From positions 1-38,926 of the forward strand of contig JAOZSV010000015.1 of NCBI GenBank assembly GCA_029939505.1: DNA of 38,926 bases, read 5' to 3'. The notes under the pieces are model-generated. The model made no database searches. It saw nothing but the letters and a program-made list of their open reading frames with translations, and was not told the origin of the DNA. A program made the position numbers and the translations under genes. Position 1 is the first letter of the stretch. Each line of letters starts with the position of its first letter. This stretch comes from Thiotrichaceae bacterium. Lineage in GTDB: Bacteria > Pseudomonadota > Gammaproteobacteria > Beggiatoales > Beggiatoaceae. This document shows, piece by piece, positions 5,126-28,502 of the stretch.

Positions 5126-5203
5126 TTATATTCTCAATTTCAAGGCTCAAAGCTAAAGTCTGTTAAAACAGACTTAGTAACTACTCAGGGCAACCATAAA
5201 GGA

Positions 5204-5246
5204 TTCGAGGTTAAAGTTTTTTCTTTAAAAAAACTTTAACCTCGAA
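5204..5246. repeat. TTCGAGG palindrome, inner arm TTAAAG
   Basis: A 43-bp palindrome, TTCGAGGTTAAAG...CTTTAACCTCGAA, inserted into the GGATTGCCCC segment of an ACTCAGGGCAACC element. The intact form of that segment is visible at 27421-27430, so the insertion is recognisable by comparison. Net growth is about 42 bp. Confidence 0.85.
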
Positions 5247-5367
5247 TGCCCCTACAACAATATTCTGACAGAAAGGATTGCCCCTACAACATTTCAGCCT
5301 AAAGTTTTCTTCAAAAAACTTTAGGCTGAAATATTCTTATGTCGAGTGACGAAAATATTCTGATGTA

Positions 5368-5482
5368 ATGTCCATCCTGAAACGGCTTTTAAAATCCCAA
5401 AGCTGAAGCGTTGAACTCCAAACAAACAATGGGCATCTTGAAGTCCAACGCTTTAGCTTTGGAGATGTTTCCGGATGGACAC
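5368..5482. mobile_element. GTGTCCATCC hairpin element, copy 1
   Basis: A 115-bp inverted-repeat element beginning ATGTCCATCCTGAAAC and ending GTTTCCGGATGGACAC. The inner stem is AAGCTGAAGCGTTG.ACTCC paired with GG.GTCCAACGCTTTAGCTT, and the central segment is CAATGGGCATCTT. Flanks GATGTA (5362-5367) and TATGTA (5483-5488) look like a 6-bp target duplication with one change. It sits within an older ACTCAGGGCAACC element. Copy 2 is at 28528-28634. Confidence 0.8.
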
Positions 5483-5514
5483 TATGTAGAGGCAATCCCT
5501 TGTTTCTCGTTCCC

Positions 5515-5557
5515 TTCGAGGCTAACGTTTTTTCTTTAAAAAAACGTTAGCCTCGAA
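5515..5557. repeat. TTCGAGG palindrome, inner arm CTAACG
   Basis: A 43-bp palindrome TTCGAGGCTAACG...CGTTAGCCTCGAA lying between CTCGTTCCC and CTCCGTTTGGGAATGCC. The uninterrupted host sequence CTCGTTCCCAAACTCTGTTT is seen at 30001-30020. The same palindrome with the same inner arm sits at the same place of the host repeat at 33145-33188. Confidence 0.85.
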
Positions 5558-5656
5558 CTCCGTTTGGGAATGCCTTTCGTGACGCTCTGCGTCACTCATC
5601 ATTTCTGTTCTTAAGAACGCAGAGCGTTACCGGTAGGCAAAGTCACACTCCTACAA

Positions 5657-16967: not shown

Positions 16968-17273
16968 GGGGCTGAGTAGTTACGTAAATTGTTAAATTCG
17001 CCAGATTTTTTTGGGTAAAGTCGCAAGCAAAAAAACGGGAATGTTTTTTTTATTCAAAAGGTTATATTTCGACAGCCTAGGACATTACGGATAATAAGCG
17101 CGATGGTGAACCAATCAAAGTGATCAGTATCACTTGTCTATTATATTTTTTGCGGCTGACAATTTAAAATGAAAAACAAACTTGAAATTGTTGATTTTAA
17201 GGCGGAGTACGAAATATCTATAAACAGCCACCAGTTTCTTCAAGAAACTGGCTTTCTTTTCTAAATAAACGAA
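16968..17273. other. Gene-free stretch with an orn-like 3' tail and antitoxin-like fragment
   Basis: At 17145-17172 the sequence matches the end of orn (15677-15704) at 26 of 28 bases and in the same frame: YFLRLTI-stop against HFLRLAI-stop. At 17169-17264 a 31-codon frame, MKNKLEIVDFKAEYEI and on, starts with the same IDFKAEY-like stretch as the broken antitoxin at 16443. It then runs into a CCAGTTTCTTCAAGAAACTGG-type hairpin (17229-17249). Both look like gene fragments brought together by recombination. The nnr promoter should lie here but was not recognised. Confidence 0.5.
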
Positions 17274-20131: not shown

Positions 20132-20874
20132 CTCGATCATCAAGTTTTTTCGTTACTCAATAAACAGAAATGAGATAGGCGAAATTAATTTAAAAAACTG
20201 TTTTAAAATCAAAGCATTAAAAAATATTCGTCTGTCTGAAATCCAACGCTTTGGCGACCTACATCACTTCGTTCCTACCCATCCTACATTTGCAATGCCA
20301 TTAAGTTAAGGACAGACACACAGGTATGCCCCTACCAATCTCAACATATTCAGGGGCGGTAGAGGCGAACCTGCGTGTTCGCCTGGCTTAAATTAATGGC
20401 ATTTTTTCTGGTTCCCACTCGCTGGCGTGGGAACGAGAAAAACTCAGCTAAACTCTCTTCGAGGTTTAAGTTTTTATCATCAGTAAAAACTAAAACTCGC
20501 ATGAATAGTGGATGTCTTAATAGACCGTTTTTTAGTGTGGCTATTATGTTGATATTGTCGGTGATGAATAAAAAATATCAGTTTAAACAATCACTTGAAA
20601 ATTATTTTCGGTGATTTAAAAGAGAATTTCATGAACTTCAAGAACGGATTGATGTAAAGTGTCTTTTGGAGGTGGTGGAAAAACGTCATGAGCGGGGCAA
20701 CTTGGGCAACTTAAACTGGTTGATTCCATGCAACGGGTACTCGCCGCGTTTTTCTTCAAAAAACTTAAACCTCGAAATTAGTCTGTTTTAACAGACTTTA
20801 GCTTTTAACCTTGAAATCAATTTCAAGGCTAACCGCTGAGTAGTTAAAAATTAGATATTCACCATTCATCATCC
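20132..20874. other. 743-bp stretch without an intact gene
   Basis: It holds GACAGACACACAGGTATGCC / GGGGCGGTAGAGGCGAACC-type repeat ends (about 20308-20385, cf. 35794-35860), a TTCCCACTCGCTGGCGTGGGAA hairpin (about 20412-20433), a decayed TTCGAGG palindrome (20460-20503) and half of another (20751-20777). Between them, about 20555-20750, a plus-strand frame with one TGA reads ELQERIDVKCLLEVVEKRHE and NLGNLNWLIPCNGYS; it may be a gene remnant that I cannot assign. The histidine kinase 3' end lies at its right edge. Confidence 0.5.
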
Positions 20875-23691: not shown

Positions 23692-25980
23692 ATGATTGAA
23701 CGCTATAGTCAATGGGTTATCCGTTGGCGTTATTTTATTGTTCTTGCAACATTAGTATTAGTTGGGCTGACTACCCTTGGCTTTCCGCTCAAGTTTGATA
23801 CTGATTATCGGGTATTTTTTAGTGAAGAAAATCCGCAACTTGTGGCTTTTGAGGATTTACAAAATACCTATACCAAAAATGACAACGTATTAATTGTATT
23901 AGCCCCTAAAGATGGGCGGGTATTTACACAGGAAACGTTGGAAGTGGTAGAAAGGTTGACTCACGAGGCTTGGCAAATTCCCTATTCCATTCGTGTTGAT
24001 TCGATTACCAATTTTCAACACACCTACGCGCATGAAGATGATCTCACGGTTGAAGATTTGATTAGCAATGCGAAAACGCTTTCTGAGGCGGATATGGCGC
24101 GTGCTAAAAAAGTCGCCCTTTCTGAGCCTATGCTGATCAACAAGTTAATTTCACCAAAGGCACATGTCACGGCGATCAATATCACCGTCCAATTACCTAG
24201 CATACATCCCGAAGCAGAAGTGCCAGAAATTGTCGAATTTGTCCGCGAACTGGCTGACAAAGTACGCGCCAATTCTCCTCATCTGGATGTTTATCTCGCA
24301 GGAATTGTGATGATGAATAATTCTTTTCCAGAAGCCGCTCAATCAGACATGCGAACGCTCTTTCCCGCCCTGTTTTTGATGATTATCGTCATATTATGGT
24401 TACTACTACGCGGTTTGTCAGGCGTTTTTTCCACAATATTAGTGGTGATATTTTCCACCATTTCTGCCCTGGGATTAGCAGGATTAATTGGTATAGCACT
24501 AAGTGGTCCCTCAAGCACCGCACCCATTATGATTCTCACATTAGCCGTCGCCGATTCAGTGCATTTTTTAGTCACCCTGAGACATGAAATGTGGGAGAAT
24601 GGGCGCGAAAAACACCAGGCGATTATAGAAAGTTTGCGTGTCAACTTTCAGCCGATTTTTTTAACCAGTTTAACGACGGCTATTGGCTTTTTGAGCATGA
24701 ATTTTGGCGATGTACCGCCCTTTCACGATTTAGGCAATATTGTCGCGACAGGTGTGATGATTGCGTTTGTTTTATCGGTTAGCCTTCTCCCCGCACTGAT
24801 GGCAATACTACCTATGCGTAAAAAACAACAAAGCACTAAAAATACTCATCTGATGGATCGCTTAGGAGATTTTGTCGTTGCTAAGCAGCGTCTATTAATG
24901 TGGGGGATGGCAGGTGTTATTCTATTCCTTATTGCCTTCGTACCCCGCAATGAACTCAATGATGTCTTTGTAGAATACTTTGATGACAGCTTTGCTTTCC
25001 GCCGTGCGACTGATTTTACCACAGAAAATCTCACGGGTACTTATGATATACATTATTCATTAGGGGCTGGAGAATCTCAAGGCATCAGTGATCCCCTATT
25101 TCTACAAAAAGTCGCTGCTTTTACAGATTGGTATCGAGCGCAACCAGAGGTGACGCATGTCAACACGATTACTGACACCTTTAAGCGTCTTAATAAAAAC
25201 CTGCACGGCGATGATCCGACTTATTATCGCCTTCCAGAGCAACGTGATTTGGCAGCACAGTACTTATTGTTATATGAAATGTCTTTGCCTTATGGTTTAG
25301 ACTTGAACAACCAAATTAATATAGATAAATCTGCTACTCGTATCGCTATCACATTAAAAACGTTATCTTCTAATGAATTGTTAGCAATAGAAGAACGCGC
25401 ACAACAATGGCTCAAAAAAAATGGTTTACCTGCCATGCAAGTGCCTGGTGCAAGTACCTCTTTAATGTTTGCTAACATTGGTTCGCGCAATATTCAGAGT
25501 ATGCTATTCGGTGCAGCCCTGGCGTTAATATTGATTTCTATTATTCTCATTTTCGCCTTGCGCTCATTGAAATTTGGCTTAATCAGCCTTATACCTAATT
25601 TAGTACCCACATTAATGGCCTTTGGTTTATGGGGGTTATTGGTGGGGCAAGTGGGATTAGGTTTATCCGTCGTCGCTGGATTAACGATTGGTATTGTGGT
25701 TGATGACACGATCCATTATTTAAGTAAATACCTCCGCGCCCGCCGCGAAAAAGGTCTTGATCCAGAAGATGCAGTACGATATGCTTTTCATAGCGTCGGT
25801 TTAGCTTTATGGGTTACATCACTTGCTCTGGTTGCAGGGTTTGCGATTTTATCCCAATCCCACTTTTATCTTAACTCAACTATGGGTATAATGACTGCTG
25901 TGACAATTGCCTTTGCTTTAATGACTGATTTTCTATTTTTACCCCCTTTATTAATGAAGATTGAGAAGAAAACGACATAA
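23692..25980 (+). CDS. RND/MMPL-family exporter
   Basis: A 762-residue inner-membrane transporter of the RND superfamily (COG1033-like). It has the two-fold layout of one helix, a periplasmic domain and five helices: TM1 about 14-31, periplasmic part with DTDYRVFFSEENPQLVAFED, helices about 225-375, TM7 about 400-417, second periplasmic domain, and helices about 605-755. The charged residues in the TM4-equivalent positions are in AVADSVHFLVTLRHE and VVDDTIHYLSKYLRARRE. Such exporters are encoded with a LolA-like periplasmic protein and move lipids or hopanoid-type compounds. The LolA-like gene is now at 27675, and copies of this gene's last ~130 bp occur twice before it. Confidence 0.9.
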   Translation: MIERYSQWVIRWRYFIVLATLVLVGLTTLGFPLKFDTDYRVFFSEENPQLVAFEDLQNTYTKNDNVLIVLAPKDGRVFTQETLEVVERLTHEAWQIPYSIRVDSITNFQHTYAHEDDLTVEDLISNAKTLSEADMARAKKVALSEPMLINKLISPKAHVTAINITVQLPSIHPEAEVPEIVEFVRELADKVRANSPHLDVYLAGIVMMNNSFPEAAQSDMRTLFPALFLMIIVILWLLLRGLSGVFSTILVVIFSTISALGLAGLIGIALSGPSSTAPIMILTLAVADSVHFLVTLRHEMWENGREKHQAIIESLRVNFQPIFLTSLTTAIGFLSMNFGDVPPFHDLGNIVATGVMIAFVLSVSLLPALMAILPMRKKQQSTKNTHLMDRLGDFVVAKQRLLMWGMAGVILFLIAFVPRNELNDVFVEYFDDSFAFRRATDFTTENLTGTYDIHYSLGAGESQGISDPLFLQKVAAFTDWYRAQPEVTHVNTITDTFKRLNKNLHGDDPTYYRLPEQRDLAAQYLLLYEMSLPYGLDLNNQINIDKSATRIAITLKTLSSNELLAIEERAQQWLKKNGLPAMQVPGASTSLMFANIGSRNIQSMLFGAALALILISIILIFALRSLKFGLISLIPNLVPTLMAFGLWGLLVGQVGLGLSVVAGLTIGIVVDDTIHYLSKYLRARREKGLDPEDAVRYAFHSVGLALWVTSLALVAGFAILSQSHFYLNSTMGIMTAVTIAFALMTDFLFLPPLLMKIEKKTT

Positions 25981-26163
25981 TTGTTTATTGACTTATGATT
26001 GACGCATTGACAAAAAATGTTTTCTTTATAAAAATCATATCGTTATAAAAATTGACACTTAACTCAATTTGTGAAAACTCTCAAAAATGATTGAGTAAAA
26101 ATTTTGTAACACATTGAATTTAAAGAGAAATAATTTTATTATCAATGCGTCAGTTCATAGAGA

Positions 26164-26230
26164 TTATTCAGATGACTACCATTGTTATCAATAGCGGCTA
26201 CGTCGAATGAAGAAGAACTTGCATAAGCGA
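26164..26230 (+). pseudogene. Decayed 5' segment of the LolA-like gene
   Basis: These 67 bases align without gaps to 27702-27768, the signal-peptide and early mature coding region of the LolA-like gene, with 57 identical positions (counted by eye). Shared stretches include TTGTTATCAA, GCGGCTACG and AATGAAGAA. The reading frame is broken. Its position downstream of the intact exporter gene is where the partner gene would be expected in an undisturbed operon. Confidence 0.75.
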
Positions 26231-26288
26231 ATGGATTTAACCCTCGCTTTATGTTGTCAGTTCAAATTAATTTTAAAAGGCATATAAA

Positions 26289-26537
26289 ATGATAAGAGAG
26301 ATTATTATACCTAAATATGATCGTTTTACGATAAAAATACCAAAGGAGTATATAGATAGAAAAATTGAGTTTATTATGTTTGCTTTAGATGAAGATAAAA
26401 GTATAAAAAAATATAAGCCCAAAAAAAGTAATCGTATTGAATTATTGGGTGGAATATTAAATAGATATGCAGATTGCTCTAAAATAGAATTAGAAGAGAA
26501 AGCATGGGAGATGCATGTTTTGGAGAAATATAGATGA
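26289..26537 (+). CDS. Putative antitoxin of a PIN-toxin pair
   Basis: An 82-residue, very AT-rich gene. The N-terminus IREIIIPKYDRFTIKIPKEY resembles the antitoxins that precede PIN toxins; the basic KKYKPKKSNRIELLGG linker and the acidic/helical C-terminus fit DNA binding followed by toxin binding. The stop overlaps the toxin ATG by 4 nt. A partial copy of its 3' end, with changes, is present at 27299-27360. Function is inferred from position. Confidence 0.75.
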   Translation: MIREIIIPKYDRFTIKIPKEYIDRKIEFIMFALDEDKSIKKYKPKKSNRIELLGGILNRYADCSKIELEEKAWEMHVLEKYR

Positions 26538-26908
26538 TTATTTTAGATGCGAATTATATATTGCGATTTTTACTCAAAGATAATGATGAAATGTATGAAA
26601 TTGCTAAAGAGTGTATTAAAAATAATGATTGTATTATTGAAAATGAAGTTTTAGCAGAAGTTGTTTTTGTTTTATTAAAAGTTTATAAAGTGAAAAAAAT
26701 TGATATAAAAAAATCTTTGATTAGTTTTATATCATTTGAAAATATTGTTATATCTAATAAAGATGATATAATCAACTCTTTAGAAGTTTTTAGTGGTAAA
26801 AATTTGGATTTTGTCGATTCTATTTTATGTGTGAAATCCAAAAAATATGAAATTAAAACTTTTGATAAAAAACTAAATAAATGTATTAAAAATTATAAAT
26901 CAAAGTAA
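26534..26908 (+). CDS. PIN-domain ribonuclease toxin
   Basis: A 124-residue PIN protein with the four acidic positions Asp5 (ILDANYILR), Glu42 (NEVLAEV), Asp95 (LDFVDSILC) and Asp111 (TFDKKL). It is intact and lysine-, isoleucine- and asparagine-rich, with base composition well below its exporter neighbour, which suggests recent arrival. The pair sits exactly where the exporter operon has been split. Confidence 0.88.
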   Translation: MIILDANYILRFLLKDNDEMYEIAKECIKNNDCIIENEVLAEVVFVLLKVYKVKKIDIKKSLISFISFENIVISNKDDIINSLEVFSGKNLDFVDSILCVKSKKYEIKTFDKKLNKCIKNYKSK

Positions 26909-26969
26909 CAAATACGGTGAAGTTTTCACAGGTTGAAATAAGATTTTGCCAATTATTACTTATGGGCGG

Positions 26970-27125
26970 GTTGTCATTTTATCCCAATCCCACTTTTATC
27001 TCAACTCAACTATGGGTATAATGACTGCTGTAACAATTGCCTTTGCTTTAATGACTGATTTTCTATTTTTACCCCCTTTATTAATGAAGATTGAGAAGAA
27101 AACGACATAATTGTTTATTGACTTA
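26970..27125 (+). repeat. Second copy of the exporter 3' end
   Basis: This matches 25853-26004: the last about 130 coding bases, the TAA stop and about 24 bases after it (TTGTTTATTGACTTA). Only scattered substitutions are seen, so the duplication is recent. The bases before it (AAGATTTTGCCAATTATTAC) recur before the third copy at 27514 on. Confidence 0.9.
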
Positions 27126-27149
27126 GGAATGTGCATCAAATAAAATCGT

Positions 27150-27192
27150 TTCGAGGCTAAAGTTTTTTCTTTAAAAAAACTTTAGCCTCGAA
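27150..27192. repeat. TTCGAGG palindrome, inner arm CTAAAG
   Basis: A 43-bp palindrome TTCGAGGCTAAAG...CTTTAGCCTCGAA. To its right are decayed halves with GAAGCAGAAGCCTCGAA and GAAGCGGAAACATCGAA within a direct repeat. Confidence 0.85.
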
Positions 27193-27396
27193 GAGGTTTT
27201 CGTTTTTTTGAAGCAGAAGCCTCGAATACTAAACCTGACAGGTTTGATGCAACATTTTTGAAGCGGAAACATCGAAAACTAAACCTGTCAGGTTTGATGT
27301 GCAGATTTTTCTAAAATAGAATTAGAAAATAAAGCATGGGAGATGTATGTTTTGGATAAAGATGAAGATTATGGTGAAGTTTTCACAGGTTGAAAT

Positions 27397-27505
27397 GTAA
27401 CAACTCAGGGCAACCATAAAGGATTGCCCCTACAATATCCTTATTCCGACTGACGAAAATATTCTGATGTAGGGGCAATCCCTTGTGGTTGCCCTGAGTC
27501 GTTAC
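27397..27505. mobile_element. 109-bp MITE with 8-bp target duplication
   Basis: Terminal repeats GTAACAACTCAGGGCAACCA and TGGTTGCCCTGAGTCGTTAC differ at one position. A second inner pair is GGATTGCCCCTACA / TGTAGGGGCAATCC. GTTGAAAT stands on both sides (27389-27396 and 27506-27513). The paralogous sequence at 26931-26950 (GGTTGAAATAAGATTTTGCC) is the same locus without the insertion, which proves the boundaries. An older, heavily interrupted relative lies at 5180-5500. Confidence 0.93.
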
Positions 27506-27547
27506 GTTGAAATAAGATTTTGCCAATTATCACTTATGGGTGGGTTA

Positions 27548-27677
27548 TCATTTTATTACCATCCCACTTTTATCTCAACTCAACTATAGGTATAATGACT
27601 GCTGTGACAATTGCCTTTAATGGCTGATTTTCTATTTTTACCCCTTTATTAATGAAACTTGAGGAAAAAACGACATG
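27548..27677 (+). repeat. Third copy of the exporter 3' end, joined to the LolA-like gene
   Basis: It matches 25853-25980 with more differences, including the loss of a few bases (TTGCCTTTAATGGC against TTGCCTTTGCTTTAATG). It ends GAAAAAACGACATGA, so the exporter's stop TGA overlaps the ATG of the following gene. This is probably the ancestral exporter/partner junction. Confidence 0.88.
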
Positions 27678-28502
27678 AAAAGATTGTTTTTATTATTGAC
27701 ATTATTCACATTACTACCGTTGTTATCAACTGCGGCTACGCCCAATGAAGAACAACTGGCACAAGCGATTGCCAATGCGAAAACGCCTGAAGAAAAAGGT
27801 TTGGCCATTGCAGAGATGGCAGACTATCGTGATACAGGCTGGCAATCTCAAGAAGCTGACATGCTCATGATCCTCCGTAACCGCCAAGGGCAAGAAAGCA
27901 AGCGCAAGATGCGAATGAGGACGATGGAAGTTGCGGGAGATGGCGACAAATCACTATCAATCTTTGACACGCCACGCGATATTAAGGGTACAGCCATGCT
28001 AACCTGGTCACACGCGCTTAAACCTGATGATCAATGGCTTTACTTACCTGCTCTCAAGCGGGTGAAGCGTATTTCTTCCGCAAATAAATCGGGACCATTT
28101 ATGGGCAGCGAATTTGCCTTTGAAGACCTCGCTTCGCAGGAGGTGAAAAAATACACCTATAAGTATCTGCTGGACGAGTTTTACAATGGGATGGATTGCT
28201 ATGTGGTGGAACTTTATCCCGCTTATGAGAACTCTGGCTACACTCGTCAAGTGGGGTGGGTTGATAAAGAACATTTTAATCCACAAAAAACCGTCTATTA
28301 TGATCGCAAGAACGCGCTACTCAAAACGTTGAATGTCGAGGGGTATCGGCAATACTTGGGTAAATATTGGCGTGCTGAAAAAATGATGATAGAAAATCAT
28401 CAGACGGGTAAAAGTACGGAACTCTTATGGGATGAATACAAATTTGATATGGGTTTCACGGATCGAGATTTTGATAAAACTACCCTCAAGCGGGTACGGT
28501 AG
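27675..28502 (+). CDS. LolA-like outer membrane lipoprotein-sorting protein
   Basis: A 275-residue periplasmic protein with a signal peptide (KRLFLLLTLFTLLPLLSTAA) and the LolA-like fold of the family found beside RND/MMPL exporters. Typical stretches are MLMILRNRQGQESKRKMRMR, DIKGTAMLTWSH, DDQWLYLPALKRVKRISS, GPFMGSEFAFEDL and KTVYYDRKNALLKTL. It is expected to take a lipid from, or give it to, the exporter. Its ATG overlaps the stop of an exporter 3'-end remnant, but the intact exporter is 1.7 kb upstream, so coupling to a full-length partner has been lost. Confidence 0.9.
   Translation: MKRLFLLLTLFTLLPLLSTAATPNEEQLAQAIANAKTPEEKGLAIAEMADYRDTGWQSQEADMLMILRNRQGQESKRKMRMRTMEVAGDGDKSLSIFDTPRDIKGTAMLTWSHALKPDDQWLYLPALKRVKRISSANKSGPFMGSEFAFEDLASQEVKKYTYKYLLDEFYNGMDCYVVELYPAYENSGYTRQVGWVDKEHFNPQKTVYYDRKNALLKTLNVEGYRQYLGKYWRAEKMMIENHQTGKSTELLWDEYKFDMGFTDRDFDKTTLKRVR

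Follow-up and report, generated by a model that had tools for sequence, protein, structure and literature searches.

A non-coding 109-bp element with probable IS66-type ends and its empty site in a duplicated segment of a Thiotrichaceae genome

The contig of a Thiotrichaceae bacterium analyzed here (38,926 nucleotides; the window) carries a 109-bp hairpin element in one of two copies of a locally duplicated segment, which raises the question of what this element is, when it arrived, and which enzyme could have moved it. We consider it very probable that it is a nonautonomous MITE with IS66-type ends of the ISBst12 group, served in trans by an IS66-type transposase. The element is short, no open reading frame of at least 90 amino acids in the window's list overlaps it, and its ends, read directly at positions 27397 and 27505, are enclosed by the octamer GTTGAAAT on both sides, so that the exact ends and the 8-bp target duplication proposed in a sequence-only reading of this DNA are both confirmed. 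The 20-bp terminal repeats given in that reading are too short; the arms are imperfect inverted repeats of 38 bp, of which 35 positions match and positions 6, 21, and 24 do not. Folded as RNA, the element forms one hairpin (-63.7 kcal/mol, z -12.8). It ends 169 bp before the start of a LolA-like gene (27675), and the hairpin might reduce read-through toward the latter. The features of the locus and the other family tips in the window are collected in Table 1.

Table 1. Coordinates of the element, its surroundings, and other tips of the family in the window
Feature	Coordinates	Strand	Basis or remark
Non-coding MITE of 109 bp with 35/38 arm complementarity	27397..27505	.	Read directly
Target duplication GTTGAAAT, left copy, 8 bp	27389..27396	+	Read directly
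Target duplication GTTGAAAT, right copy, 8 bp	27506..27513	+	Read directly; same octamer beside the element in G002:C427
Left tip of 12 bp, GTAACAACTCAG, a putative end for transposase binding	27397..27408	+	Conserved block stops at position 12
Right 12-bp tip GTAACGACTCAG	27494..27505	-	Conserved-block comparison
Unoccupied target GTTGAAAT, empty site in copy A	26932..26939	+	Read directly, alignment
Duplicate copy A, empty	26913..27109	+	Window self-comparison, alignment
Duplicate copy B, filled, with 27397-27505 inside	27370..27677	+	Window self-comparison, alignment
Third relative of the segment: terminal 3' part of the MMPL/RND-type gene (23692-25980) plus directly adjoining downstream bases	25838..26001	+	96% to 26968-27131; Pfam
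PIN-domain ORF, toxin-like, between the MMPL/RND-type gene and copy A	26534..26908	+	Pfam, ORF list
Tip of a nested, damaged family copy	5177..5188	+	No partner or duplication found
Exact tip GTAACTACTCAG, different interior (CCCCCTCGTTCC...)	16972..16983	-	No duplication-bearing partner within 600 bp
One-mismatch tip, GCGGTTAGCCTTGAAATT-type copy	20836..20847	-	No partner tip found

Once the element and one GTTGAAAT are removed from copy B, the alignment of the two copies of the segment spans 191 columns, 176 of them identical, in addition to 2 gaps (6 gap positions). Copy A holds the octamer once and lacks the element, as expected from the earlier proposal that an empty site lies in the same window, and a second in-genome pair is formed by locus L008, filled and with CAAAAATC twice, and locus L363, where CAAAAATC occurs once. 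The greater part of the segment is similar to the 3' end of the MMPL/RND-type gene, a sequence that occurs three times in the window (25838-26001, 26968-27131, and 27550-27676) and is single in the congener G001. The stretch just 5' of the PIN-domain ORF (26464-26541) recurs just 5' of copy B (27296-27372), and our guess is that it represents the end of an antitoxin. Part of the start of the LolA-like gene likewise occurs twice (26157-26233 and 27695-27771), and between the copies, at 27142-27299, lie a hairpin (TTCGAGGCTAAAGTTTTTT...) and two inverted AAACCTGACAGGTTT units; short palindromic repeats of this type are also found at other loci of the genome.

The two copies imply, on local evidence, that the insertion is later than the duplication, as the sequence-only reading had it, and two congeners bracket the event. 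In G001, the RND gene runs directly into the LolA-like gene (locus L440); the two matches of this locus to the window (25972-24371 and 28500-27561) overlap, leaving no room for the duplication, the PIN ORF, or the element. In the sister genome G002, which is taken to be Thiomargarita sp. RS_2_10 and would share the family Beggiatoaceae with the present genome, contig C427 starts inside the element and from there matches the right tip, GTTGAAAT, and the gene that follows with 95% identity. Because the element is absent from G001 and present at the same site in G002, the insertion falls after the split from G001 and before that from G002, in the order duplication, insertion, last species split. 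Alternatively, the element could be older than the duplication and have been lost from copy A, either through precise excision or through conversion with an empty copy as donor, a history for which the G002 contig leaves some space, as the left part of the site is uncovered there; however, copy A keeps a single octamer with no scar, and G001 has neither duplication nor element, so that duplication followed by insertion needs only one event each, and we regard the reverse order as improbable.

The element is one member of a repeat family that is very abundant in Thiomargarita relatives. Its 19-base end GTAACNACTCAGGGCAACC was matched 226 times in the genome with at most two mismatches, compared with 0 matches for the reversed pattern, and the 12-bp tip followed by a non-G base was found 316 times, compared with 2 for the control. 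In a separate search, the matches listed represent at least 84 stretches, a count that is not a map of distribution. Copies were censused in 101 stretches of the genome (944,311 bases, of which 57,124 were read as N), consisting of the window and the first 20 kb of each contig in nonrandomly chosen blocks (C1-20, C80-100 without C90, C150-169, C260-279, and C330-349; 100 stretches). Exact tips numbered 126 in this sample, against 0 exact reversed tips. For pairing, every plus tip was joined to the closest minus tip no more than 600 bp away, a rule by which old broken copies can be mispaired. The 8-bp duplication was exact in 19 of the 51 pairs thus obtained, carried one mismatch in 7 (one of these reading as a 9-bp flush repeat within a run of T), and had two or more mismatches in 25, while the chance rates estimated from cross-paired flanks were 0.3% for exact and 2.1% for one-mismatch octamers. 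Flush exact repeats whose greatest length was 4 or 5 bp occurred in one pair each, and 6- or 7-bp repeats in none. The sequence-only reading had named other copies with no 8-bp duplication as evidence against its proposal; taken literally, such copies exist, and the 25 pairs without a good octamer are interpreted as old copies, as rearranged ones, or as pairing errors. The 8-bp duplication characterizes the family, and the many dispersed copies flanked by it, together with the excess of end matches over the reversed pattern, indicate that the element is not a chance arrangement.

A scan that used only GTAAC and an exact 8-bp duplication yielded 18 pairs, compared with a mean of 0.15 and a maximum of 5 for 59 permuted control 5-mers. 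Among the 36 ends of these pairs, positions 7 to 12 (ACTCAG) were kept in 32 to 35, whereas position 13 was G in 16, C in 15, T in 3, and A in 2; since conservation stops after position 12, the common end is 12 bp long and the interiors differ. Only the 12 bp GTAACNACTCAG are common to all copies, and the interiors between the tips are several unrelated hairpin types (GGGCAACC, CCTTGAAATC/GCGGTTAGCC, TCTTAAAGCG, CCCCCTCG, and GTAATGCC). The octamers are A/T-rich (121/144, 84%, compared with 61% in the sampled sequence). These strong hairpins, and the several unrelated short palindromes in the genome, are what a REP-like or replication-slippage repeat would show, in which case the 8-bp repeats would be coincidental; as 19 of 51 pairs carry an exact duplication, where chance predicts 0.3%, and both empty sites hold just one octamer, that explanation is extremely improbable. 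The comparison for empty sites gave matches for own elements in own loci (11/89), in G002 loci (2/89), and in G001 loci (1/89), for G002 elements in own loci (7/43), in G002 loci (4/43), and in G001 loci (0/43), and for G001 elements in own loci (0/5) and in G002 loci (0/5); apart from two pairs that were aligned, these matches were low in identity or represented the element's own locus and were unused. Besides L008 and L363, one cross-species pair was aligned, the G002 element L233 against own locus L048, and was rejected because the own site carries another hairpin and the alignment is not clean. Single matches to GTAACNACTCAGGGCAACC were also seen in L208, L222, L238, and L271, records titled Oceanospirillaceae, Robiginitomaculum, Gammaproteobacteria B20_G6, and Terrimonas, respectively, and may reflect chance or transfer.

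The tips and the octamer together point to the transposase. The sequence-only reading had predicted a parental transposase making 8-bp duplications; elements answering this description are found in relatives, but none in the genome itself. PF03050 is present in 18 of 57 genomes (the present one counted among the 57), and in the present genome an IS66 transposase was found neither with this Pfam model, nor with a 560-amino-acid IS66-like protein of G002 as the query, nor with a six-row profile (best match E 0.117). Likewise, no tip pair spaced 400 to 6000 bp apart with an exact octamer was present in the 101 stretches. Several contigs end inside these elements, indicating that the repeats are poorly assembled.

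Ends around 30 IS66 loci were then defined by an exact octamer repeat and inverted ends, with no tip assumed. Duplication-flanked ends were obtained at 8 loci and none at the other 22; 7 of the 8 have GTAA or GTAT ends, and the hit at L102 (5 mismatches, no GTA) looks like chance. As L121 and L131 are one element, six distinct IS66-like elements with an exact 8-bp duplication remain, four of them in the family of the present genome (L118, GTAACTACTCAAGAAC; L121, GTAACTATTCACG/GTAACCATTCACG; L107, GTAACTACCTACC; L104, GTAAATATTC) and two elsewhere in the class, outside that family (L105, GTAAAACTTC; L123, GTATCTGCTCAA). IS66-like elements in relatives thus end in GTAACTACTCAAG, GTAACTATTCACG, and similar sequences, whereas the 17 control loci, taken from 30 fetched ISAzo13 loci, gave one hit, with 5 mismatches and no GTAAC. 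The closest element, L118, from G018 (taken to be Ca. Thiomargarita nelsonii), is 1250 bp long with GTAACTACTCAAGAAC at both ends and CATTTGAC on both sides; it has an internal deletion, retains the C-terminal half of an IS66 transposase (PF03050, E 3.5e-8), and has A at position 12 (tip ...CAA). In L108, which belongs to a further family of this class, the stop codon of an IS66 frame (E 7e-30) falls inside an exact GTAACTACTCAG tip, which is present at one end only. A full-length element combining a transposase with GTAACNACTCAG at its two ends was not found, L118 being the best. In the sister genome, L119 is the single IS66-like element that was found, and its ends differ (GTATCCTATC, read by eye); L304, closely related to it, carries GTATCCTCTC at either end. 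A looser motif, GTAACNNYTCA, occurs at 13 of the 30 IS66 loci and 3 of the 17 ISAzo13 loci, a weak test in which at least the L119 match is a neighboring MITE.

A published counterpart of these ends is ISDge4, an ISBst12-group element of the IS66 family from Deinococcus geothermalis, whose ends read GTGACTACTCAGCA/GTAACTGCTCAGCA and which duplicates 8 bp of its target (PMC12898284). Over the first 12 bases, each ISDge4 end differs by one base from the tip found here, so that the tip lies within one base of both ISDge4 ends and of L118; in contrast to the present element, which encodes nothing, ISDge4 is described as autonomous, with a 449-amino-acid transposase. IS66 elements proper start with GTAAGCG and have repeats of 20 to 30 bp and 8-bp duplications (PMC11946415); they share the GTAA start and the duplication length with our element but differ in having GTAAGCG in place of GTAACNACTCAG. 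An 8-bp duplication and a GTAA tip matching ISBst12-type ends are therefore both present in the family studied here. From the ISDge4 ends, L118, L108, and the tips of the relatives, an ISBst12-type IS66 transposase is the most likely enzyme. A DDE transposase of this type, supplied in trans by an element that was not found in the present genome, would recognize the 12-bp tips, cut the target with an 8-bp stagger, and join the element there; repair would then double the octamer GTTGAAAT, the insertion having entered copy B after the duplication had formed while copy A kept its empty target.

Besides IS66, 8-bp duplications are made by ISAs1, IS256, ISL3, IS6, and IS1. A transposase of another 8-bp family, hidden in or missing from the draft assembly, is an unlikely but not negligible source, given that no parent was located in the genome, that contigs end inside the elements, and that IS1595 was the sole other 8-bp family sought there. 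One ISAzo13-type element of the sister genome (L151/L192) even lies beside an exact tip; this tip is outside the IS and is due to chance, as similarity to other ISAzo13 copies begins about 36 bp further in, and the ISAzo13 ends themselves do not coincide with the tip, the single hit in the control loci included. IS1595 was also rejected as the parent (PF12762, 0/3 congeners), whereas the IS66-type tips match nearly base for base, and we retain the ISBst12-type enzyme as the probable mobilizer. Naming a parent family in this way makes the proposal testable.

Compared with published MITEs, the element is ordinary in kind, and its documentation is unusually good, since ends, target duplication, empty site, and relative age provide an exact and internally controlled definition. 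MITEAba12 of Acinetobacter is about 113 bp long, and its identity to candidate parents is confined to the terminal repeats (PMC6382973); 36 of its 90 copies keep the target duplication, so that 19 of 51 here is not unusual. It differs in that its parent ISAba12 is present, the duplications are 9 bp, and the ends are GGCTTTGTTGCA-like. MITECca01 of Cardinium was likewise recognized by the terminal repeats of a parent IS (PMC9769881), which in this case belongs to the IS982 family and is present in the genome. Closer in host, and compared here by its published description, is the hupL MITE family of Ca. Thiomargarita nelsonii, from the same bacterial family; it is abundant, its authors report no parent, and its repeats are given as 10 bp direct and 19 bp inverted (PMC4853749). 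No report of an IS66-derived MITE was found in the accessible parts of the open-access literature, and open-access searches for the tip or its GGATTGCCCCTAC core gave only papers with unrelated titles.

The interchangeable interiors suggest, tentatively, that the mobile unit is just the tip, a single 12-bp IS66/ISBst12-type end that brackets different hairpins, with the enzyme now gone; we hold this to be possible rather than probable. The shortest copy, of 26 bp (L140/L338, G000:C6:14956-14981), is built from two tips set back to back, of which the second has a single mismatch; it is flanked by an exact 8-bp duplication, GAAATTTT, and may be a later internal deletion. A 2.8-kb candidate "cargo" element at L264 (2275-5117), with an exact octamer at both ends, was rejected as a transposon; because its left flank is repeated beside the inner copy, the octamer match stems from a tandem duplication. 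With its repeated flank and a tip-bearing copy at each end, it parallels the arrangement around the element in the window, and it encloses a 313-codon frame, which we presume may encode a PD-(D/E)XK/Rpn-type protein.

Position 6 of the tip varies among copies but usually carries the same base at both ends of one copy, across unrelated interiors: the 51 pairs comprise 36 T/T, 8 G/G, 4 T/G, and one each of A/T, C/T, and A/G. This agreement is above chance (Fisher p 5e-6, leaving out the three pairs with A or C and assuming that the four T/G pairs split evenly over the discordant cells) and could reflect two or more transposase specificities. The A/G pair is that of the 109-bp element, and in G002 the corresponding right tip carries T, so that position 6 does mutate. 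Within the damaged copy at 5177-5560, the TTCGAGG...CCTCGAA hairpin occurs twice, TTTCAGCC...GGCTGAAA forms another hairpin, and a TGTCCATCC...GGATGGACA piece has TA on either side.
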